Source: Desulfobacca acetoxidans DSM 11109 (GTDB lineage Bacteria; Desulfobacterota; Desulfobaccia; Desulfobaccales; Desulfobaccaceae). Taken from it: a DNA stretch of 64,000 nt. Shown here piece by piece: positions 30,446 to 43,550 of this stretch. The stretch is from assembly GCF_000195295.1 (NCBI RefSeq), contig NC_015388.1, positions 2,294,001 to 2,358,000 of the forward strand. The letters run 5' to 3'. Each line of letters begins with the position of its first letter. The first letter of the stretch is position 1. The position numbers and the translations under genes are program-made. The notes below the pieces were generated by a model. That model was given only the letters and a program-made list of their open reading frames with translations, searched no databases and was not told the origin of the DNA.

Positions 30446-30594
30446 GAATAATTGTAACACTTCAGTTGTTTGGGGCGAATACCAGATTCGCCCCTACAGA
30501 CGGGTCTGTCGATGCTGTGGTGCTGTAGGGTGGGCGCCGCCAACCATGTTCCTGATCTATTATCTCAGATAGCTGAAGTATTACGAATAATTGA
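30446..30594. mobile_element. MITE-like element with terminal inverted repeats
   Basis: The left end is AATTGTAACACTTCAGTT (about 30452-30469). The right end, read on the other strand, is AATTATTCGTAATACTTCAG (about 30575-30594). The two align over about 20 bases with a few changes, forming terminal inverted repeats of a roughly 149-base element. Inside are a near-perfect palindrome GGGGCGAATACCAGATTCGC (30472-30491, closing CCC) and a CTGTAGGGTGGGC segment. It has no coding capacity. Partial copies occur at 7976 and 10312. Confidence 0.6.
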
Positions 30595-30605
30595 AAAAAC
30601 TATCG

Positions 30606-30661
30606 GTGGCACAGGCGTCCCGCCTGTGCCACATTGAATTGAACAGGCTGAAAGCCTGTTC
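30606..30661. repeat. two strong palindromes of the CAGGC/GCCTG family
   Basis: GTGGCACAGGCG TCC CGCCTGTGCCAC (30606-30632) is a perfect 12-base-pair hairpin. GAACAGGCT GAA AGCCTGTTC (30641-30661) is a perfect 9-base-pair hairpin. Similar hairpins occur at 10442, 21954 and 36623. They are REP-like in form. Confidence 0.8.
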
Positions 30662-30736
30662 CACCTTATTTAATCGACCTTCAAGTCAGTTGTTCCAAAC
30701 TCTAACTTTGATGTTAAATTAGCGTAAGTCACCTAG

Positions 30737-30805
30737 GAACCATGAAAATAAGTCCGCAACGATCTGCTATCCCCGATCTGTTCAACTCGAAATGTATTCT
30801 CTTGG
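30737..30805. repeat. dispersed ACCATGAA...CTCGAAA repeat, copy 3
   Basis: GAACCATGAAAATAAGTCCG leads to CCCGATCTGTTCAACTCGAA and TGTATTCTCTT. It aligns with copies at 17861 and 19264. Confidence 0.55.
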
Positions 30806-30883
30806 TAAACTTACCAGGAATTTACCTGAGGTCCAAGAACAAAGGCGGAGGTTTGAGGCCGGGTAAGAATTAAGTAGATTGCC

Positions 30884-31738
30884 TTATTGAGGTATGACTG
30901 TAATAATCTTGGCCTTCCGGGCCTGGATAATGGAGAGGCGTCCCTGGCCGCCGACATATAGGGGCTGCAATCCGGCGGGCCTGATTTTTAATTCTGCCGC
31001 CGGAGGCGGGGACGGTGCTGAGGGAGGCGGGGGTGCCCCGAAAGTAGCCGGCACCGGGACATCCTTCCCGGTGTATTCGCGCATGATGCTGGCAACGTAA
31101 TTCTGCGTTTCCGCAAACGGCGGCAACCCCTGATACCGGGCGACGTTTTCCGGCCCGGCATTGTAGGCCGCCAGGGCCAGGCAGAGGTTATTATTGAAAC
31201 GTTGGAGACAGAGTTTCAGATAGCGCACCCCCCCGGCAATATTCTGTTCTGGGTCGAAGGGATCCTGCACCCCCAATAAGGAAGCGGTGCCCGGCATGAG
31301 CTGCATCAGACCCATAGCCCCTTTCGGTGAAACCGCCTGGGTGTTGAAACCTGATTCTTTCTGGACCACCAGACGCACCAGACCGGGATCGACCCCGTGT
31401 TCCTGGGCGTATTTCCGGATCATAGCCGCAACCTGGAAATCACCCGGAGAGGATGAGGACCAGCTTCGAACCCTGCCCCTCCCGCCTCTGGTAATGATCG
31501 GCTCTCCCGCCCAACTTGGGGACGAACCGCGGATTATCCTGACCGGCAGGCTGCGGCTCAACAGTTCGAGATCATTATCCGGCTGAAGGATGCGCGGGCC
31601 GTTTACCCCGGCCTTCTCAGCGATGAGCAGAGAACCATCCGGACTCAGGCGGATCAGGGCACTCTGCGGATGGACGTCTACCCAGCTAGATAATAATAGA
31701 AATAGGCCAACGAGACTGACGATTGAAATTCTCTTCAT
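30884..31738 (-). CDS. lytic transglycosylase (SLT domain) at the end of the Tad cluster
   Basis: The 284-residue protein has an N-terminal signal peptide (KRISIVSLVGLFLLLSSWVD). The SLT/goose-lysozyme-like domain (about 115-235) has catalytic Glu in VQKESGFNTQAVSPKGAMGL, then LMPGTASLLG and ALAAYNAGPENVARY. The C-terminal tail is proline-rich. It cleaves peptidoglycan glycan strands. It lies 66 bases after tadC on the same strand, so it probably opens the wall for the pilus. Transglycosylases are common in secretion and pilus clusters. Confidence 0.92.
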   Translation of the reverse strand: MKRISIVSLVGLFLLLSSWVDVHPQSALIRLSPDGSLLIAEKAGVNGPRILQPDNDLELLSRSLPVRIIRGSSPSWAGEPIITRGGRGRVRSWSSSSPGDFQVAAMIRKYAQEHGVDPGLVRLVVQKESGFNTQAVSPKGAMGLMQLMPGTASLLGVQDPFDPEQNIAGGVRYLKLCLQRFNNNLCLALAAYNAGPENVARYQGLPPFAETQNYVASIMREYTGKDVPVPATFGAPPPPSAPSPPPAAELKIRPAGLQPLYVGGQGRLSIIQARKAKIITVIPQ

Positions 31739-31804
31739 GCTGACCGCCGCTTCTGGCTATTCTAAAAATTTCTGCGAACAGGGCCGTGCTAAAATCGAGG
31801 CAAT

Positions 31805-32713
31805 CTATTTTTTAGCCATCGACTCGGCTACCTGAATAACTGCCGGACCTAAGATAACGACAACGAGAGCTGGGAATATAAAAAGTATCAAAGGAAAAAC
31901 CAATTTCACCGGTGTCCTTGCTGCCAGTTCTTCCAAGCGTTGTCGGCGATTCGTACGCATAGTGTCGGATTGTACCCGCAACGCCTGGGCAATGCTGGTA
32001 CCGAATCGATCGGCTTGAATGAGAATGGCGCACAGGGTTGATAACTCCTCAACACCGGTGCGCTCTGCCAGATTGCGCAAGGCCTGCTCACGATCTAATC
32101 CCGCCAGGATTTCTAAATTAAGCATATTGAATTCAAGACTTAAGACAGGATTGTTCATCTTAAGATCATCCGCAACCCTTTTCATAGCTGCATTTAGCCC
32201 TAATCCGGCCTCTACACAAACTACCAATAAATCCAAGGCGTCGGGTAATCCTTCCGAGATTTTCTTCTGCCTGGCCGAAATCTTGTGATTCAAAACGAGA
32301 TTGGGCAGATAGAAACCAAATGCAAGGAGCAGATAAAGAAAAACCGGCTTCATTATCAAACCAACATTGAGGTTCAATGATAGAGGAATTCCAATTATTA
32401 TCGCCGCTAGAGGCGATGTAAGTTTAAAAAATAAAAAGCGGGAGAAGGCACGACTGCCATAGCAACCGGCTAACATAAGCTTTTTCTTGAGTTCCTTGGC
32501 CTTGACGGGATCCTTGGCAAACCCCATTATGGAATTTAATCTTTTTGAAAATTGCTCCGAGATAATATTATGACGTCGTTTATTGACTTCAATTGCCGCA
32601 CTGTTACTAGAAAATAAACGGCGCCCCTGGGAAGGCGTAGTCTTCTGGATAAGGTAGGCAATGAGAAAGAAAAATAAACCTGCAACCATGATACCAAAAA
32701 GTATTAAATCCAT
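31805..32713 (-). CDS. tadC: Tad/Flp pilus inner-membrane platform protein TadC
   Basis: The 302-residue type II secretion F-domain protein has an N-terminal helix (LILFGIMVAGLFFFLIAYLI), a central cytoplasmic T2SSF domain (about 145-265, including DALDLLVVCVEAGLGLNAAM) and a C-terminal helix pair (KLVFPLILFIFPALVVVILG). It should pair with TadB to form the platform on which the CpaF ATPase builds the Flp pilus. It lies 29 bases after tadB. Confidence 0.92.
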   Translation of the reverse strand: MDLILFGIMVAGLFFFLIAYLIQKTTPSQGRRLFSSNSAAIEVNKRRHNIISEQFSKRLNSIMGFAKDPVKAKELKKKLMLAGCYGSRAFSRFLFFKLTSPLAAIIIGIPLSLNLNVGLIMKPVFLYLLLAFGFYLPNLVLNHKISARQKKISEGLPDALDLLVVCVEAGLGLNAAMKRVADDLKMNNPVLSLEFNMLNLEILAGLDREQALRNLAERTGVEELSTLCAILIQADRFGTSIAQALRVQSDTMRTNRRQRLEELAARTPVKLVFPLILFIFPALVVVILGPAVIQVAESMAKK

Positions 32714-32742
32714 AAGGACCTAACCCCTATTAAATGTATGCC

Positions 32743-33762
32743 TTAAACTTTGATATTTACGATTTTATGAATCATCAGGTATCCCAAAAGTTGCATCGTT
32801 AATGCCACTCCCACCATCATCTTTCCCCAGGGATGGGTTATTAAAAGCAACATATACTTTTTATTGAGGAAGTAGAGAATTATGGCCATACCTGGTGGCA
32901 GACAGGTGAGAATTAAACCCGAAAAGCGACCCTCAGAGGTTATTGCTTTAATATGATTAACTAGTTTAAAGCGATCGCGAATCAAAGAAGCAATTTTCTC
33001 CAAAATCTCTACCAAATTTCCCCCGGTCTCCCGCTGAATATTGATTGCTGTGACAAAAAATTTCAGGTCTTGCAGATCAATGCGTTTCTGGAGGTTGGCG
33101 AGGGCGCTGCTCATGTCCAGTCCATAATTAAATTCCTTAAACGTCTTGAAAAATTCTATGCCGATGGGATTGGGCATCTCATCCGCCACCAGTTGCATAG
33201 TGCTGGGAAAGGAATGGCCGGCTTTCAGACTGCGAGCCATAAGGCCCAAGGCCTCGGGCAGTTGTTTTTCAAATTTCTTCAGCCGGTATTTTTTCTTCAT
33301 GTGCAAGAAAACATTAGGCAGCAGATAGCCGACGAGGAAAAGACCTCCCAGACCCCCTAAAGGTCCGGATTGCAAAAACCCATATGCACCCGCCCCGAGT
33401 CCGGCCAAAATACTGGACCCTAAAACCGTGCTCGCCTTCCAGGAGATATCCGCCTGCAATAACAATTCATCCAGGTTGAAAAACCGGCCCACTTTGGCGA
33501 CCAGACGTTTCCAACGAGATTCCGGCGCCAACATTCCCTCTTTGATCAGCGATTCGGCGGAGGAATTTCTTTCCAACCCTTCAATAAATTTCAGCCGTTG
33601 CTGAATATGCTTCTCACTCTGACTGCGCCTGCCGGCAAAGGAGTGATACAATCCTTCCATGAGAAAAAGGATGCACAAGAAGATGGCAACCGGAAAGAGG
33701 TTGGGAAAACCCGATTCCGCCGGTTGCAGCCAGTTAACAATGGTTTCCAGGAAGCCGGCCAT
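32743..33762 (-). CDS. tadB: Tad/Flp pilus inner-membrane platform protein TadB
   Basis: The 339-residue T2SSF protein has N-terminal helices (FPVAIFLCILFLMEGLYHSF), a middle pair (TVLGSSILAGLGAGAYGFLQ), the F domain (about 180-290, with QLPEALGLMARSLKAGHSFP and RETGGNLVEILEKIASLIRD) and C-terminal helices. It is the partner of TadC. A 272-base gap filled with a tandem repeat separates it from cpaF upstream, which is unusual for a tightly packed Tad operon. Confidence 0.92.
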   Translation of the reverse strand: MAGFLETIVNWLQPAESGFPNLFPVAIFLCILFLMEGLYHSFAGRRSQSEKHIQQRLKFIEGLERNSSAESLIKEGMLAPESRWKRLVAKVGRFFNLDELLLQADISWKASTVLGSSILAGLGAGAYGFLQSGPLGGLGGLFLVGYLLPNVFLHMKKKYRLKKFEKQLPEALGLMARSLKAGHSFPSTMQLVADEMPNPIGIEFFKTFKEFNYGLDMSSALANLQKRIDLQDLKFFVTAINIQRETGGNLVEILEKIASLIRDRFKLVNHIKAITSEGRFSGLILTCLPPGMAIILYFLNKKYMLLLITHPWGKMMVGVALTMQLLGYLMIHKIVNIKV

Positions 33763-33873
33763 AATTCTGTTCTTATAATATTGCTGAATTCATCTATCTC
33801 GTTCCCGAGCTCTAAACTGGGAACCGGAAAATATATTTCCTGCGTTTAGATTGCCATCAACGAGATTTTGTTT

Positions 33874-34030
33874 GTAGGGGCGAATCTTGTATTCGTCCCT
33901 TCCCGGGAGGGCGAACACAAGGTTCATACCGGCGCTGTGAGGGCGAACACAAGGTTCATACCGGCGCTGTGAGGGCGAACACAAGGTTCATACCGGCGCT
34001 GTGAGGGCGAACACAAGGTTCGCCCCTACA
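33874..34030. repeat. 32-bp tandem array bounded by inverted GTAGGGGCGAA ends
   Basis: GTAGGGGCGAATCTTGTATT starts at 33874. Three full copies of a 32-base unit beginning GAGGGCGAACACAAGGTTCA start at 33907, 33939 and 33971. A fourth copy at 34003 runs into TTCGCCCCTAC (34019-34029). The outer ends are inverted copies of each other. The units are nearly identical with no unique spacers. Confidence 0.9.
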
Positions 34031-34034
34031 GGGC

Positions 34035-35380
<1,346 letters not shown>

Positions 35381-35384
<4 letters not shown>

Positions 35385-36574
35385 GCGCTACCTCTCAACC
35401 ACAACAGGCGTTTAAAACCTTGCCATATGCCAGCCTTTCGGCTGTCAGCTTTCTCCTCCCCGTTGAGCATTCGGGCCAATCTGCTAATCTTCAGGCTTAA
35501 TCGATCGGAAGGCTGGGTCTCGACCAATGGCCGCCCCTCATTAATACTCTGAATCACCACCTTCGGGTCGGACCGGAGCACGGCCAGAAAATCCTGCCCC
35601 AAAAATTTTGTCGCCTCCGATGGGGCTATATCAATTCCATTGATGAAGCAGTTTGCCACCGGCTTAAGCTTCTGCTCCCCGAATTCCAGCCGATGCAACA
35701 TCTGCAAGATTTTTCGGGTATGGCGGAGGGCCGGAATAGTGAGCACCGTAATCAACAATACCAGATCCGAGGCCTCCAGGCCCTTCAGGGTGATTTCATC
35801 CAGATGATCTCCGAGGTCCAGCAGTATCCAGCGATAGAGGTTTTGGCTCCGGAGATATTGCAGGATTTTGTCCACCTGCGGGGCCTGTACTATCTCGCTG
35901 TCTTCCAACCGCTGCGGCCCCGGCAGGACATCCAGACCGGAGTCGCGGCTGTGAATGATGTCCTTCAAATACTGCGGGTCGAGGCGGTCGAAATTCTCAA
36001 TGACATCCAGGATGGTATAGCGGGGCTGGATATCCAACAAGGCGCTGACATCAGCCGCCTGCATATCCAGATCAAAGAGCAGGACAGGTTCCTTGCGGTC
36101 CTGCAAGAAACTCTGGGCCAGATTGACGGCCAGAAAGGTGACGCCCACGCCCCCCTTACACCCCAACAGCGAGATAATCTGGGTTTTTTCGCCGTCGTGC
36201 AAGGTTTTTCGAACCTTATTGAAACGATGCAGCGCCTTGTGAAAATCCGGTTCGCTGATCTGGCCGACAAAACACTCCTGAACCCCCAGGCGCAGGGCCT
36301 TAAGCAAAACCTCAGTGCTGGCCTCCTGCAGATAGAGAAAGATTGCCGGATGGTTAACCCGCTGCTGCATTTTTTCAATCCACAGATCAAAGCCTTCCAC
36401 CCGGTCGTCATATTCGATAAACCAGACATCGGCCTCGCCATCCTCCGGAACGGTCAGGGAAGGGGCAAGGATCGCCACCGAAACCACTACCCCCTGGGGC
36501 GAGGCATTGATCACCTTCTGTAGATATCCTCCGATTTTTTCGTTGAAATAATAGATGCTAAAACGTATTGCCAT
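35381..36574 (-). CDS. cpaE: Tad/Flp pilus localisation protein CpaE (TadZ), ParA-like
   Basis: About 397 residues. The N-terminal receiver-like domain (about 1-125) lacks a clear phospho-acceptor. It is followed by a MinD/ParA-type ATPase with the deviant Walker [18 protein letters not shown] and the switch [15 protein letters not shown] chose the ATG at 36572-36574 ([14 protein letters not shown]) after an AAAAGGTACT site; the longer frame to 36625 adds an unsupported stretch. CpaE/TadZ places the pilus at the cell pole. It is coupled to cpaF by overlap. Confidence 0.9.
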
Positions 36575-36622
36575 GATAGTACCTTTTTCTTGATAATTGC
36601 CATGAAAATCATCTGCCGGTGG

Positions 36623-36641
36623 CACAGGCTTCCAGCCTGTG
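36623..36641. repeat. CACAGGCT-TCC-AGCCTGTG palindrome
   Basis: A perfect 8-base-pair stem with a 3-base loop, of the same family as 30606-30632. It appears inserted in a copy of the ACCATGAA/CTCGAAACT repeat: CCATGAAAATCATCTGCC lies before it and AGCTCGAAACTCGG after it. Confidence 0.65.
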
Positions 36642-36863
36642 TTGAATTTTTTTCTATTAGCTCGAAACTCGGAACTAGAAACTCGAAACTTATTTTCTTA
36701 GTAAATGCTTCTGCTCGGCTAAGAATGTTTCTAAGAACATAATTCGGCAGGAATCAGTCAAAGCTTTAAAGCGAAGAAGATATTTTTAGAAGTGATCAAC
36801 TTGTTGGTGATTTCTCTCAGAGTTGCAGAGATTTTCAGGAATATTTACCCAGCATTGACAGCA

Positions 36864-37333
36864 ACTTGACGCCAAACGTAGGGGCGAATCTGGTATTCGC
36901 CCTGATGACATCAATTTGACGCCAAACGTAGGGGCGAATCTGGTATTCGCCCTGATACGAGGGCAGATGCGGGGGGCGAACACAAGGTTCGCCCCTACAT
37001 TCCAATCCTTACATTCCAATTTTTATATATCCGCGCCCCGGAACATCAGGGGCTGGTGCGTACCCGGACCTGGGGTTCGCCCCTACATTCCAATCCTTAT
37101 ATATCCGCGCGGCACTCAGAATAATAGTGACAGGATTGACATCAATTTGACGCCAAACGTAGGGGCGAATCTGGTATTCGCCCTGATGACATCAATTTGA
37201 CGCCAAACGTAGGGGCGAATCTGGTATTCGCCCTGATACGAGGGCAGATGCGGGGGGCGAACACAAGGTTCGCCCCTACATTCCAATCCCTACATTCCAA
37301 TCCTTATATATCCGCGCGGCACTCAGAATAATA
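36864..37333. repeat. duplicated repeat block between cpaE and cpaB
   Basis: A 50-base unit TTGACGCCAAACGTAGGGGC with a GGGCGAATCTGGTATTCGCC palindrome occurs four times, anchored at 36868, 36918, 37149 and 37199. The block, followed by GGGGGGCGAACACAAGGTTC and TACATTCCAATCC, is present twice, about 281 bases apart. TATATATCCGCGCGGCACTC also occurs twice (about 37100 and 37307). No coding frame was recognised in the 769-base gap. Confidence 0.88.
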
Positions 37334-37343
37334 TTGAAAGGAC

Positions 37344-38162
37344 TCAAAAATTAACCATCTCCCTGCCGACTCCCCGAATCACCTCCACCCCTACCTTGGC
37401 AGGTGGTGGAATTGGACCCTCAAAATTCGCTGCCGCCTTTTTCTCAGGGGTGAGCAGGGCCGAAACCCTGGCCCCGGCGGTAGGTATGGCGGCTTTTTCC
37501 GTCCACCCGCGCAGGGCCAGGGTTATAGTTCCCTCCTTGGCGGCCAGTGCCAACCGTTCCCCTTCCTCCGGCGTCACCTCAAGGGTCACGGTAGGCACAA
37601 CTTTCGGTCTTTCGCCGGCCTTCTGTTGCTCGATATCCTGGCCGGTACCCAACACCGGCAGGTTCTGCAGGACTATCTGCGTCACGGGATCATTCTTGAA
37701 CTCATTGCGATCCAAGGATAGCAGGACGTCCACCCGGTTGCCCGGAACGATAAAACCGGCCACACCGGAGGCTTCATCCACCTTGATGGTGACCGCCCGT
37801 TTATCGTTGCCGATGATGCCGGCCATCCCGCCCGGGGCTCCTTTGGGGGCCAGCTCATGCTCCTGGATGACCTCGCCAGCCACGATGAGCTGGCGGGTCA
37901 CCCGGCCTTCCAGGGCCTTGAGGTCGGTGGCGGCATCAGCGGCAACATGTTCTTTCGGCAACTGCACCACCTTTAACAGCTCAGGAATTAAAACGCTTCC
38001 CGGTGCAATGTTCCTGGCCGCCGCCACCGCCGGCATCATTGCCACGCTGTCCCTCGCCGCCGGACGGGCCCGGGCCTTAAGCCAGCCGCTGGCTATGTAG
38101 GCAGCAAACCCGCCAAAGACAACAGCCAGCACCAATAGAAGCAACGGCGGAATATTCTTCAC
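37344..38162 (-). CDS. cpaB: Flp pilus assembly protein CpaB (RcpC)
   Basis: The 272-residue protein has an N-terminal membrane anchor (IPPLLLLVLAVVFGGFAAYI), then an SAF domain (about 40-110, VAAARNIAPGSVLIPELLKV) and an RcpC-type domain (about 120-215, GFIVPGNRVDVLLSLD; VTLEVTPEEGERLALAAKEG). CpaB/RcpC normally stabilises the outer-membrane secretin. Here the gene that usually follows, cpaC/rcpA, is missing and replaced by a repeat-filled gap. The start is GTG with a poor ribosome-binding site. It lies 92 bases after the second pilin gene. Confidence 0.92.
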   Translation of the reverse strand: MKNIPPLLLLVLAVVFGGFAAYIASGWLKARARPAARDSVAMMPAVAAARNIAPGSVLIPELLKVVQLPKEHVAADAATDLKALEGRVTRQLIVAGEVIQEHELAPKGAPGGMAGIIGNDKRAVTIKVDEASGVAGFIVPGNRVDVLLSLDRNEFKNDPVTQIVLQNLPVLGTGQDIEQQKAGERPKVVPTVTLEVTPEEGERLALAAKEGTITLALRGWTEKAAIPTAGARVSALLTPEKKAAANFEGPIPPPAKVGVEVIRGVGREMVNF

Positions 38163-38254
38163 AATCCCACACTTGACTCGTTATGAAAAAACTCTACATC
38201 ATACAATCAGCGCGATGCCGACTTTAGCGTTACTCGTTAGCCGCACCATCGATT

Positions 38255-38431
38255 TTATTTGCCGCTAGTGCCAATTTTAGTTGCCGCAGAATTTACTGAA
38301 GTATTTAATTTTCCGTAGAATACATAAATTCCCGCAATCAGCACTGCCCCAATGGCTCCAACTAGAACGGCATATTCCACCGCGCTGGCACCGTCTTCTT
38401 CCCTGATAAATTTTTTGATCATTGTCTCCAT
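38255..38431 (-). CDS. flp: Flp-type IVb pilin, second copy
   Basis: The product has 58 residues, and a GGAAAC site precedes the ATG at 38429-38431. The sequence METMIKKFIREEDGASAVEY shows the Flp prepilin processing site G/ASAVEY (cleavage after Gly14, Glu at +5). A hydrophobic core (AVLVGAIGAVLIAGIYVFYG) and a short polar tail ending GTSGK follow. This is the major pilin fold of Tad pili. It is paralogous to the gene at 38478-38660. Confidence 0.93.
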   Translation of the reverse strand: METMIKKFIREEDGASAVEYAVLVGAIGAVLIAGIYVFYGKLNTSVNSAATKIGTSGK

Positions 38432-38477
38432 TATTGTTTCCTATAGATCATATGATGTGTGCCGACCTTAGCCTCAA

Positions 38478-38660
38478 TCAGCTAGCCCCACCATTAGTCC
38501 CGATTTTAGTTGCCGCACTATCAATTGCAGTATTCAATCTTCCATAGAATGCATAGATTCCTGCAATCAGCACTGCTCCAATGGCGCCTACCAGAACAGC
38601 ATACTCCACCGCACTGGCGCCGTCTTCTTCCCGAATAAATTTTTTGATTAACGTCTTCAT
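38478..38660 (-). CDS. flp: Flp-type IVb pilin, first copy
   Basis: The 60-residue prepilin begins MKTLIKKFIREEDGASAVEY, with the G/ASAVEY cleavage motif, a hydrophobic segment and a tail ending TNGGAS. A GGAGAAC site precedes it. It is about 80% identical by eye to the next gene, with most changes in the exposed tail. It is the promoter-proximal gene of the Tad cluster. The prepilin peptidase (CpaA/TadV) needed to process it is not in the window. Confidence 0.94.
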   Translation of the reverse strand: MKTLIKKFIREEDGASAVEYAVLVGAIGAVLIAGIYAFYGRLNTAIDSAATKIGTNGGAS

Positions 38661-39671
38661 GATTGTTCTCCTTAGAATATACGATTTTAGTCATTAAATT
38701 TTAAAATTTTTAACGCCTTACATGGCCACAAACATTATTCCTTCCTTTCAGCCGCTCCCGCTACGCATCACCTCCATATAGGTATATTTACTCTCTAAGA
38801 AACCCTCTTCTAAGATTAACATTATCGTTATGATATAATCGGCAGCATCAGATTAAACTTTAAAATCTCCCTTAAATCGCGGAGCACTTTTTTTATTTCT
38901 CGTACTTTTTGAGGCTATCCCCGTCTAAGATATTTTATCAACCGCATTTTCATAAAGTTTCAGTACCTCTACACCCAGGATGCCCCTCGCGGCAGCTATC
39001 GCCGCGGCCACAGAAATAAACAGAAATAAGAAAAGTGTATTCCAGCGCCACCGCCCCGGAATCGCCGCCCCATCAGCTCGGCCAGAATAGAGGATTCCTT
39101 TCCATAGCTCTGCTCCCCATTTTCTGCCTTTGATTAATATTTCGGCATCGAAAAAAATAACTTTAATCTCGACGGCAATACCAACTCACCATCAAACCAA
39201 TATTTTCACTGTAGGGGCGAATCTTGTATTCGACCCTGTGATTCCGGGCGAATACCAGATTCGCCCCTACAGGCTACAGGCCAGGGATTCCGGGCGAATA
39301 CCAGATTCGCCCCTACAGGCTACAGGCCAGGGATTTTGGGCGAATACCAGATTCGCCCCTACAGCCCTATGATTTTGGGCGAATCCGGCTAATATCTTTT
39401 CCAGTGGGAATGGGCATAACTTCAGTAAATCTTCGGGTGCCCCAGACAACTCGTTAAATTCTGGCAGATGCTTGCCGGATGCTCTGCCGCTGAAGCGGGC
39501 CTGATAAATATCAGGCAACGCCCATCCTACGAATTCTCTTGAAGTTGAAGCGGCTTATTCTCTTAAGTTTTTCCCGGTTCTTGCCGATTTTTATGATGTG
39601 AAGCAATGCAGGACAGACACAAAGGGCCGCCCCTAAAGATGTGAATTTTTAAAGATGGAAGAGAAAATCCT
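38661..39671. other. 1-kb divergent intergenic region upstream of flp and the AAA+ gene
   Basis: The pilin-side part (38661-38930) is AT-rich and should hold the flp promoter. I saw no clear -24/-12 or -35/-10 pair. On the minus strand, 38925-39186 is an open frame without ATG, GTG or TTG. Its C-terminal 50 codons look protein-like (one membrane helix, RWNTLFLFLFISVAAAIAAA), so a decayed small gene is possible. Bases 39211-39385 are a repeat array. Confidence 0.5.
39211..39385. repeat. 46-bp tandem array of the GGGCGAAT...ATTCGCCC palindrome
   Basis: GTAGGGGCGAATCTTGTATT at 39211 is followed by units starting GATTCCGGGCGAATACCAGA at 39240 and 39286 and a variant at 39332 (period 46), then a shorter one at 39371. 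Each unit contains GGGCGAATACCAGATTCGCC plus CCTACAGGCTACAGGCCAGG. It is the same family as the arrays at 33874 and 36864. Confidence 0.88.
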
Positions 39672-41054
39672 ATGGCCTTGAAGAATCCGCCGCAATCATT
39701 ATTGAAGGAATCGCTGCTGCGCCCGCCGGTCAGCAGGCAGAAATCCCCCGACCCGGCGAGGTCTGATGAAGTTGCCGGCCCACCCCCTCTGCCGGTAAAG
39801 TGGCCCCCCAAATCCATCGCCGACCTCCATATCCCGGAAAATTTCATGGCCAACCTCCTGCTCAAGCACGCCTTCTACCAGGAGGTCTTTACCCTGCCGG
39901 ATATGACCTCCCGGCTGAAGTTGAGTTCTACCATCATCCTCCAACTTCTGGACAATCTGCGGCGGGATAAGTATGTCGATATCAGGGGGTCAGGAAGCCT
40001 GGACGGCGCCGCCACCGCCATCAGCCAGAACTACCGCTTCGCCCTGACCGAAGCGGGCAAACGCTGGACGGCGCAACTCCTGGAGTTTGACAGCTACGTG
40101 GGACCGACGCCGGTGATTCTGGACGAGTACTGGCGGCAGGTAGAGGGGCAGAGCATCCGCAATTTCCGGGTTAACCTGGCCCGCCTGAAGCAGGGTTTTT
40201 CCGGTTTGGTAATTCCGGAAACCCTTTTTGACCAGTTAGGTCCGGCCATGGTCAGCGGCAAACCGATGTTCATTTATGGACCGGCGGGCAACGGCAAGAC
40301 GGCGGTCTCCCTGCGCTTGGGCACGCTGATGGATGATCCCATCATGGTACCCTACGCCCTCTATGTCGAAGGTAACGTCATCCGGGTCTTTGACGCCGTC
40401 ACCCACCGCCCCCTGGTGGAGGACTCGGAGGTCCACTTCCAGACCGACCCGCGCTGGGTACAATGCCAGCGGCCGACCGTCCTGGTGGGCGGGGAAATGA
40501 CCCTGGAGATGCTGGACCTGGCCTTTAATCCCGTCCTCAAGTATTATGAGGCACCGCTGCAATTAAAGGCCAACAACGGGCTGTTCATCGTAGATGATTT
40601 CGGCCGCCAGCGTATTGCCCCCCAGGAGTTGCTCAATCGCTGGATCATCCCGATGGAAAACCGGCGCGACTTTCTCTGCCTGCATACCGGGCACAAATTC
40701 GCCATCCCCTTCGACCAGTTGCTCATCTTTTCGACCAACCTGGCCCCCGAGAGCCTGGTGGACCCCGCCTTCCTGCGCCGCCTGCGCCATAAGATCAGGC
40801 TGGATCACATCGACCGCGAGCAGTTCCGGGCCATCTTCCGGTTAGTCTGTGAACATTATCAGGTTGAGTACGATGATCAGATCGTCGATTATCTCCTGGA
40901 GAGATACTATGACCCGGAAGCAAGACCCATAGACGCCTGCCATCCCCGGGACCTGATAGAGCAGATTATCGACATCTCCCGTTTCCGGGAGGTGGCGCCG
41001 CAATTGACCGAAGAAAATATCGACCGGGCCGGCAAGACCTATTTCGTCGATTAA
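39672..41054 (+). CDS. AAA+ ATPase divergent from the Tad pilus cluster
   Basis: The 460-residue protein has a proline-rich N-terminus and a winged-helix-like region (about 55-135, FTLPDMTSRLKLSSTIILQL). The AAA+ core has Walker A YGPAGNGKT (202-210), Walker B NGLFIVDDFGRQ (about 304-315), sensor ISTN-like LLIFSTNLAP and an arginine-finger-like FLRRLRHKIRLD; a lid follows. It resembles ATPases described as having predicted chaperone activity and found with Flp pilus loci. Here it is head-to-head with the pilins. A pilus-assembly or regulatory role is inferred from context. A GGAAGAG site precedes the ATG. Confidence 0.8.
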   Translation: MALKNPPQSLLKESLLRPPVSRQKSPDPARSDEVAGPPPLPVKWPPKSIADLHIPENFMANLLLKHAFYQEVFTLPDMTSRLKLSSTIILQLLDNLRRDKYVDIRGSGSLDGAATAISQNYRFALTEAGKRWTAQLLEFDSYVGPTPVILDEYWRQVEGQSIRNFRVNLARLKQGFSGLVIPETLFDQLGPAMVSGKPMFIYGPAGNGKTAVSLRLGTLMDDPIMVPYALYVEGNVIRVFDAVTHRPLVEDSEVHFQTDPRWVQCQRPTVLVGGEMTLEMLDLAFNPVLKYYEAPLQLKANNGLFIVDDFGRQRIAPQELLNRWIIPMENRRDFLCLHTGHKFAIPFDQLLIFSTNLAPESLVDPAFLRRLRHKIRLDHIDREQFRAIFRLVCEHYQVEYDDQIVDYLLERYYDPEARPIDACHPRDLIEQIIDISRFREVAPQLTEENIDRAGKTYFVD

Positions 41055-42689
41055 GTGATAGTTCTTATACAGAACCTTGCCAAGGGGGGTGTCTTGCCAA
41101 ACCAGGGTTTCGAAGCCGATCAAACAGTTGCTGCAGCCAAGTCATCGTGCCTGAACAAGAGCCCAGAGGAAGTCTTTTCAAGAGGTTGGCCGTTTTCATT
41201 CCGTCAGGATTTCGTGCAGGACAGAGCCTTGCTTACCAAGACGGCGTTGATGATACTGATGCTCGTATTCTTTCTGGATATCCTCTCGCGGAATGCCAAT
41301 GCCGACGTTGACCTCTGGGGTTATTTGGCCTTCGGCCGGCTCTTCTGGGAAGGGGGCAGCTTCCCTTATCAGGATATCTTTACTTATGTGCCGACCCATA
41401 CCGTCTGGGTCTACCACGAATGGCTCACCGGCGTCCTCTTCTATCCGATCTATGCCCACCTGGGTGCCGCCGGCCTGCAATCGCTAAAAATGATTTTCGC
41501 CTTTGCCTCTTTATCCTTGATTTTCGCCACGGCGCGCCGCCGCGGGGCCAGCTTTTACGGCGCAGCGCTGATATTAATTGTCATGAGTGGATTTCTGATG
41601 GGCGGTTACAGTCCGGTGAGGGCCCAGGTATTCACCTATTTCTTTTTTACCCTGACGCTGTATCTCTTGGAGACCGCCAGGCTGACCTGCCGCTGGAGAG
41701 GACTTTGGCTGTTCATACCCATCCAGGTGGCCTGGTGTAACCTGCACGGCGGCTTTCTGGCCGGACTGGGATTAATCTTCATCTATGCCGCGGGCGAAGC
41801 CCTGGCGCGCCGCCCCTTCTGGCCCTATCTGACGATCCTGGGGCTGTCGGCCCTGGCAACCTTAATAAACCCGTATGGTTTGCAGTATTGGCTTTTTATG
41901 ATGCAGGCGGCAACTATGCCCCGGCCGGAAATCACCGAATGGGCTTCGATACTTTCAGCCTACAAATTAGGATTGCAGGCAAAATATCTCTATTATTTTG
42001 CTGCCGTTTGCATCTTTGTGGGTTCCCTGATCTGGGTCTGCCGCTGGCGCGAGCTGACGGCCGGATTAGCCCTGGCTATAACCTTCTGCCTGGGTCTGAA
42101 ACACATCCGCCATCAGGAATTTTTCCTCATACTGAGCGCCGCCTACCTGGCGGCACCGCTGTCTTCATATCTAACCGTCCTGAATAACCGTCCTCGGATA
42201 CAAGCATTACGCCATCGCTTGGTTTGGCACCTCTTCTTAATCTTCTTTATGACAATTTTTTTCTTGATCTCTCAACGGATGATATCCCAGAACCCCTTTA
42301 GTCTTAAGGTGCCAAGCTGCACGGCAAAAGACCAGGGAAGTATAAGTTATCCTGTAAACGCAGTTGATTTTATCCGTTCCAAAAAACTAGATGGCAGACT
42401 CTTAACTGAATTCAATTGGGGCGAGTATCTCCTCTGGACCCTGTACCCCCAATGTCTGGTGGCCGTGGACGGGCGTTACGAGACGGTCTATCCCGACAAG
42501 GTGATGCAATCATATTGGGATTTTAAATATGCCCGTCCCGGTTGGGAAAAATTCCTGCAAGAGTACCCGCCTGATATGGTTCTATTGCAGACGAATAGCA
42601 AGGTGTATCCGCTCTTGCAGAAAGAGCCGGACTGGCGGGAGGTTTACACCGACGCCGGCTCCGGCTTATTCGTCCGCAGCAGCAACTAG
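41055..42689 (+). CDS. polytopic membrane protein, GT-C glycosyltransferase-like
   Basis: Up to 544 residues. The N-terminal 60 residues are polar, then about eleven membrane helices run from residue 62 to 410 (LMILMLVFFLDILSR onward). A periplasmic C-terminal domain (about 425-544) contains LTEFNWGEYLLWTLYPQCLV and DGRYETVYPDK. The Asp-rich first loop (NANADVDLWGYLAFGRLFWE) and the C-terminal domain recall GT-C/ArnT-like membrane glycosyltransferases, but no catalytic residue is certain. The GTG at 41055 directly abuts the AAA+ gene stop; the true start may be later. Co-transcription with the AAA+ gene is likely. Pilin glycosylation is a guess. Confidence 0.65.
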   Translation: MIVLIQNLAKGGVLPNQGFEADQTVAAAKSSCLNKSPEEVFSRGWPFSFRQDFVQDRALLTKTALMILMLVFFLDILSRNANADVDLWGYLAFGRLFWEGGSFPYQDIFTYVPTHTVWVYHEWLTGVLFYPIYAHLGAAGLQSLKMIFAFASLSLIFATARRRGASFYGAALILIVMSGFLMGGYSPVRAQVFTYFFFTLTLYLLETARLTCRWRGLWLFIPIQVAWCNLHGGFLAGLGLIFIYAAGEALARRPFWPYLTILGLSALATLINPYGLQYWLFMMQAATMPRPEITEWASILSAYKLGLQAKYLYYFAAVCIFVGSLIWVCRWRELTAGLALAITFCLGLKHIRHQEFFLILSAAYLAAPLSSYLTVLNNRPRIQALRHRLVWHLFLIFFMTIFFLISQRMISQNPFSLKVPSCTAKDQGSISYPVNAVDFIRSKKLDGRLLTEFNWGEYLLWTLYPQCLVAVDGRYETVYPDKVMQSYWDFKYARPGWEKFLQEYPPDMVLLQTNSKVYPLLQKEPDWREVYTDAGSGLFVRSSN

Positions 42690-43205: not shown

Positions 43206-43330
43206 ATCTGTCAGCATGAAAATATTCATCCTGGTCGTGCTAGACGGGGAGCTAGCGGTGCCCTGTTGCCCGAGATCCGCTTAGCGGGGTTGAATTCCCA
43301 CTCAAAGGATTGCAGCGTTGTTCGGGTCCT

Positions 43331-43458
43331 GAACGCCAAGCGGGGGAATTGGACCCCACGCAACGGACGCTTGTGAACCCCGTCAGGTCCGGAAGGAAGC
43401 AGCGGTAAGCAAGGCGGTGCGTGTCGTGGCGGCTTCTAATTCAAAACCCTTGGCGTCC
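43331..43458 (+). ncRNA. ffs: signal recognition particle 4.5S RNA
   Basis: The conserved domain IV apical loop is GGTCCGGAAGGAAGCAGC at 43386-43403, which binds Ffh. Flanking arms pair as one long rod. The outer stem is GAACGCCAAG (43331-43340) with CTTGGCGTC (43449-43457). Inner arms include GAATT with AATTC and CCCACGC with GCGTG. Length is about 125-135 bases, so this is the short 4.5S form without an Alu domain. Ends are uncertain by about 15 bases. Confidence 0.93.
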
Positions 43459-43550
43459 AGTTCGAGCGATGGCGGATTCGATGAGGGGTGCACGGCCAGG
43501 TTATTCCTTTCTCAACTGATCCCCTGCCGATAATCCCGCGATTCACCTAA

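Follow-up and report, generated by a model that had tools for sequence, protein, structure and literature searches.

An AAA+ ATPase without a curated family of its own is associated with Tad pilus loci, and its membrane-protein neighbour is not a conserved partner

Does an ATPase gene that faces the pilin genes of a Tad locus belong to the pilus system, and does it work together with the membrane-protein gene behind it? The question is raised by a stretch of 64,000 nucleotides of the Desulfobacca acetoxidans DSM 11109 genome (NC_015388.1, positions 2,294,001 to 2,358,000; hereafter, the window), in which the gene for an AAA+ ATPase (P0001) is followed by the gene for a polytopic membrane protein (P0002). 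Both genes are divergent from the flp pilin genes of a Tad cluster, with about 1 kb between the AAA gene and flp (Table 1). A preliminary description, made from the sequence of the window, had correctly placed the two open reading frames (ORFs) and the two divergent Flp pilin ORFs, and had proposed that the ATPase and the membrane protein could be an accessory unit for pilus regulation, secretion or glycosylation. Many bacteria use Tad pili for adhesion, predation and the sensing of surfaces. Across the genomes that we compared, the AAA family proved to be associated with Tad loci, and the pairing of its gene with P0002 proved not to be conserved.

We used CpaB (TIGR03177) as the marker of Tad across genomes. 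Among 99 Desulfobacterota relatives, 44 of which encode CpaB over the cut-off, all 28 carriers of the AAA family also carried CpaB. The same was true of all six carriers among 274 gammaproteobacterial genomes (cpaB in 39) and of 14 of the 15 carriers among 240 alphaproteobacterial genomes (CpaB in 93). The gamma and alpha samples were even draws, both including centre genomes (G100, G099) that had been picked as carriers of the AAA gene. CpaB was also present in 43 of 44 further carrier genomes, which were reached via their AAA loci and hence have no base rate of their own. Within the genus of D. acetoxidans, one genome (G003) has both the AAA gene and Tad, and two others (G001, G002) have neither the AAA gene nor a cpaB match over the cut-off. 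The preliminary description would have been refuted had neither gene co-occurred with Tad clusters in other genomes; the AAA gene does co-occur with them in several classes, in some of them within the operon itself.

The AAA gene lies within or beside the Tad operon in the window, in gamma- and betaproteobacteria and in part of the alphaproteobacteria. Shewanella and other gammaproteobacteria share the order flp-tadV-AAA-cpaB-secretin, and in all six gamma carriers the AAA match precedes the cpaB match on one strand, with 51–103 bp between the two. Burkholderia and Paraburkholderia have the same arrangement (tadV-AAA-cpaB). In R. etli p42e the gene is found directly 3' of tadC, in Salipiger it is convergent and just past tadC, and in the Desulfobaccales it is divergent from flp/TadE/cpaB. 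Since gene order changes while Tad membership is kept, function rather than chance neighbourhood is indicated. Overall, 15 of 38 distinct Desulfobacterota AAA loci contained Tad genes, 12 did not (with at least 2.5 kb visible on both sides), and 11 were too near a contig end; for 46 other loci, the corresponding numbers were 30, 6 and 10. In a tree of 61 AAA sequences, whose deep branches are weak, the Tad-linked copies fell into two main blocks, with six label changes compared to about 20 in shuffles. Among the unlinked copies is a second paralogue of the Desulfobaccales (45–48% identical), which in several genomes (L085-L094) adjoins a ParA/MinD-like ATPase, a PilZ protein and a protein of 458–504 residues without a Pfam match (set c34).

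An L,D-transpeptidase gene was observed in or close beside several AAA-bearing Tad loci (L188, L192, L035-L074).

In several classes, the AAA gene sits among the recognised genes of Tad/Flp loci (flp, tadV, rcpABC, tadZABCDEFG). Among the accessory components added in the Tad model of Denise 2019 are tadD, rcpB and rcpC, and the accessible part of that paper does not name this AAA protein (PMC6668835). Likewise, the term 'AAA' does not occur in the accessible part of a study that deals with the Tad loci of S. meliloti and with NGR234 (PMC10934763). We drew no link to the Myxococcus Kil system, for which the part of the source at hand mentions no AAA or MoxR protein (PMC8460266). A word search of the open-access literature found no description of a Tad-linked AAA protein or of Tad/Flp glycosyltransferases, an absence that is weak evidence. 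The parts list of Tad is treated as nearly settled, and a recurrent, unnamed ATPase of the operon would alter that list. It would also define a Tad subtype recognisable from genome sequences, and could be tested as a candidate factor in the localisation or switching of pili.

As judged from its sequence, the AAA gene is a Tad-associated gene without a curated family of its own. P0001 matched no Pfam or NCBIfam family over its cut-off, and plasmid records annotated at the AAA match give generic names only (such as 'AAA family ATPase', 'ATPase AAA', 'ATP-binding protein', 'hypothetical protein'). The protein comprises a disordered segment (residues 1–40), a winged-helix-like domain (46–139), a linker (140–177) and an AAA+ core with lid (178–460). 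Its Walker A motif (GPAGNGKT) and the region of its Walker B motif (VDDFGRQ, with the family pattern DDxGRQ) are conserved across 36 diverse family members, and the FLRR motif after sensor 1 is found in 35 of the 36. We modelled P0001 with AlphaFold2 from the 36-member family alignment (predicted local distance difference test score, pLDDT, 87). In the model, the N-terminal domain has the order helix-helix-helix-strand-helix-strand-helix, the linker holds invariant residues, a beta-hairpin precedes sensor 1 in the AAA+ core, and the lid is helical. The winged-helix-like N-terminal region of the preliminary description was borne out, both by pLDDT values mostly above 90 at residues 50–140, one loop excepted, and by matches to HTH_9 and MarR_2 in single members of the family.

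The top structural match of the model was P. furiosus Q8U0N8 (PDB 8p49; Z score 18.3, 286 aligned residues, root-mean-square deviation 4.1). The alignment spans residues 71–460 of P0001, that is, most of the winged-helix-like domain together with the AAA part, but identity is 15%. We know of no function for Q8U0N8, and a word search of the open-access literature on Q8U0N8/8p49 returned nothing relevant. The next matches were Lon, sigma-54 activators including FleQ (to the AAA core, Z about 14) and NorQ.

With middling confidence, we propose that P0001 is an accessory, ATP-driven remodelling factor of Tad, and that P0002 is a lineage-specific add-on of probable GT-C type rather than an obligate partner. 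P0001 would form a ring that hydrolyses ATP and either remodels or assembles some component of Tad in the cytoplasm or the inner membrane, with CpaE/TadZ, CpaF and the platform as candidates, and its winged-helix-like domain would act as a docking module rather than as a classical DNA reader. Several points weigh against this proposal. The genomes are kin, so the hypergeometric probabilities of co-occurrence (6e-6 for the gamma sample, 9e-6 for the alpha sample) come out too small. One alphaproteobacterial genome (G486) and one planctomycete genome (G127) carry the AAA family with no cpaB detected. Just 3 of the 17 alphaproteobacterial copies listed are near Tad genes (G437, G569 and one of those in G582), and the genes next to the copies of planctomycetes and acidobacteria are unrelated to it; most alpha copies, like these, lie neither within nor beside a Tad operon. 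The remodelling role would follow from the fold class of a model, the near-zero charge of the winged-helix domain is compatible with DNA binding, and a general cellular role that merely correlates with Tad is possible.

The charge bears directly on a different reading, in which the AAA+ protein regulates transcription of the Tad operon: the winged helix would bind the promoter region of flp, and the AAA+ ring would oligomerise on the DNA. We consider this unlikely. A winged-helix-like domain, the divergence of the AAA gene from flp across about 1 kb, and an AAA core fold close to that of FleQ and other sigma-54 activators all suit a regulator. A resemblance to FleQ-FleN in flagellar control is that the AAA family sometimes adjoins MinD/ParA-like ATPases (at L061 and L064, and at most of L085-L094). 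However, neither the winged-helix domain (mean net charge −0.4) nor the putative recognition helix (mean −0.3) is basic, and in gammaproteobacteria, betaproteobacteria and Rhizobium the gene lies within the operon and not at a shared promoter. The GAFTGA loop is missing in all 36 family members and, unlike in sigma-54 activators, the winged helix is N-terminal in a different domain order. We rejected a sigma-54 activator proper for the lack of GAFTGA.

It is less probable still that the family acts generally in housekeeping or stress, its link to Tad reflecting lifestyle or lineage. The lone copies of alphaproteobacteria, planctomycetes and acidobacteria, and the second paralogue of the Desulfobaccales, speak for such a role, and a Pfam scan of the neighbours of lone copies gave no shared theme. 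Against it stand the direct operon position in several classes and the six of six carriers in the even gamma draw. We hold a MoxR-type chaperone acting on a von Willebrand A (VWA) partner, such as a TadG-like protein, to be very unlikely. By the strand order of its model, P0001 falls in the pre-sensor-1-hairpin group of AAA+ proteins, as MoxR/NorQ do, NorQ is among its structural matches, and P0001 gave a weak match to bpMoxR, as did 6 of the 36 members. These bpMoxR scores are far under the Pfam cut-offs, however, P0001 has a winged-helix-like domain at its N terminus, and Pfam detected no VWA domain in the two TadG-like proteins scanned (Shewanella, Burkholderia). We also rejected an anti-phage defence assignment (IetA/IteA), as the score was 21.3 bits against a curated cut-off of 510 (PADLOC, 19.9 bits).

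That the AAA gene and P0002 function as a pair, the ATPase acting in support of a membrane glycosyltransferase, would fit their shared strand and their spacing of between 0 and about 40 bp, but this is largely refuted and hardly credible, for a P0002 homologue was found in none of the 87 other AAA loci fetched (L031-L117, three duplicates) and nowhere in the genome of G003, the closest AAA-bearing relative (AAA 70–72% identical). The adjacency is therefore a local event, and the accessory unit of the preliminary description does not survive as such. The gene 3' of AAA varies among loci, encoding GT87 in one genus and GH3 in others. Separately, in a sister genus (g2; L032, L033, L138, L139, L141) the AAA gene is the last of an MlaE-MlaD-phosphatase operon, and a P0002 homologue is the first gene of a different Mla-type operon.

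What, then, is P0002? Its description as abutting the AAA stop assumes a start at the earliest GTG; a TTG lies at 41094 with AAGGGGGG just upstream, and many homologues align only from about residue 60, so the start is uncertain and the true one may be this TTG or a later codon. The preliminary description had also counted about 11 helices and an ArnT-like C-terminal domain. Hydropathy gave eight peaks, and a single-sequence AlphaFold2 model (pLDDT 42) was not usable for counting helices and was not used for a fold search. The ArnT-like C-terminal domain was not supported: P0002 has no Pfam or NCBIfam match, and its sole detectable similarity to GT-C proteins is to PMT_2 (GT39) over about the first 200 residues. 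There, hhalign aligned the P0002 family with PMT_2 in register, N terminus to N terminus, at 47–79% probability, compared to at most 2% for non-GT-C controls (O-antigen ligase, Nuo antiporter, set c27). Two more sets, chosen blindly to serve as controls, were themselves found to be PMT_2. GT87 was not detected by profile for the P0002 family; this test is insensitive because GT87 and PMT_2 profiles reach just 0.9% against each other although both are GT-C. A match of the full P0002 family at 91% (set c75) was set aside, as it maps to TPR repeats that distant members carry. GT-C proteins as a rule have an acidic residue in the first extracytoplasmic loop, and in P0002 the first loop, which follows helix 1, holds an aspartate (D86) that does not vary among 38 sequences. 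P0002 is thus probably a GT-C-type protein and probably a sugar transferase, with catalysis putative.

The P0002 family occurs in 40 of the 99 relatives, at least nine of which lack any CpaB match, so it is not Tad-specific, a point against our proposal. Proximity to Tad was nevertheless frequent within the order: 7 of 21 P0002-family loci, the window itself included, lie within 10 kb of CpaB (0.26 expected), as do 8 of 17 GT87 loci, five of them from one genus (0.18 expected). These were counted by hand, with tandem copies merged and short P0002 fragments (G010, G022) dropped, and the expected counts use rounded genome sizes. One Tad operon with an AAA gene, that of Burkholderia pyrrocinia, has a GT87-GT87-GT2-GtrA block running divergently from its flp genes. 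The glycosylation idea gains indirectly from the above-chance presence of P0002 relatives and GT87 beside other Tad clusters, and a putative sugar-modifying add-on at the Tad locus is plausible. P0002 would have joined this locus as its relatives and GT87 enzymes joined others, and may modify pilin or an envelope glycan. More speculatively, and on balance doubtfully, the loci could represent a widespread Tad subtype with an extra AAA+ machine besides CpaF/CpaE, remodelling via winged-helix docking, to which some lineages add GT-C modules for glycosylating the Flp pilus (of P0002 type here, GT87 among relatives, the four-gene block in Burkholderia).

Table 1 Features of the window around the AAA gene and the Tad cluster.
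Feature	Position	Strand	Description
tadC	31805-32713	-	T2SSF
tadB	32743-33762	-	T2SSF
tadA/cpaF	34035-35384	-	T2SSE 3.8e-68
cpaE/tadZ-like	35381-36625	-	AAA_31
cpaB/rcpC	37344-38162	-	TIGR03177, 236 bits over cut-off
Flp pilin 1	38255-38431	-	~58 aa; named from pilin-like sequence of translation
Flp pilin 2	38478-38660	-	60 aa; named from pilin-like sequence of translation
Dispersed-palindrome copies and partial copies	39212-39380	.	between AAA gene and pilins
AAA+ ATPase P0001	39672-41054	+	ORF, 460 aa, ATG start
Membrane protein P0002	41055-42689	+	ORF, 544 aa, GTG start; polytopic, probable GT-C-type
Large bacterial signal recognition particle (SRP) RNA	43235-43495		between IHF-beta-like gene and pyrG

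In the window, the Tad cluster runs on the minus strand in the order two Flp pilins, cpaB, cpaE, tadA, tadB, tadC and a lytic transglycosylase; 3' of the P0002 gene follow the gene for a protein like the beta subunit of integration host factor (IHF), the SRP RNA and then pyrG. The repeat array reported at the divergent junction is present, with 46-bp repeats at 39240-39364, but it is not specific to that junction. Its copies contain a 21-bp palindrome (GGGCGAA-N7-TTCGCCC) that has 70 sites in the genome, a single contig of 3,282,536 bp, compared to none for a control pattern. The palindrome is thus a dispersed repeat and no marker of the AAA-flp junction; 11 of the 70 sites fall within a Tad-locus segment of about 9 kb (30473-39338), and further clusters were observed at C1:2703759-2711364 and C1:2969106-2970122. 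No secretin gene is present in the interval between cpaB and cpaE (36625-37344), and the three secretins of the host genome are all elsewhere, so the Tad locus of the window may borrow its secretin from another locus. One of the three (C1:922680) adjoins a second CpaB-like pair (924259-925059). In an alphaproteobacterial genome (G643, C192:12826-15684), four CpaB-like matches occur within one open frame of 1073 residues.

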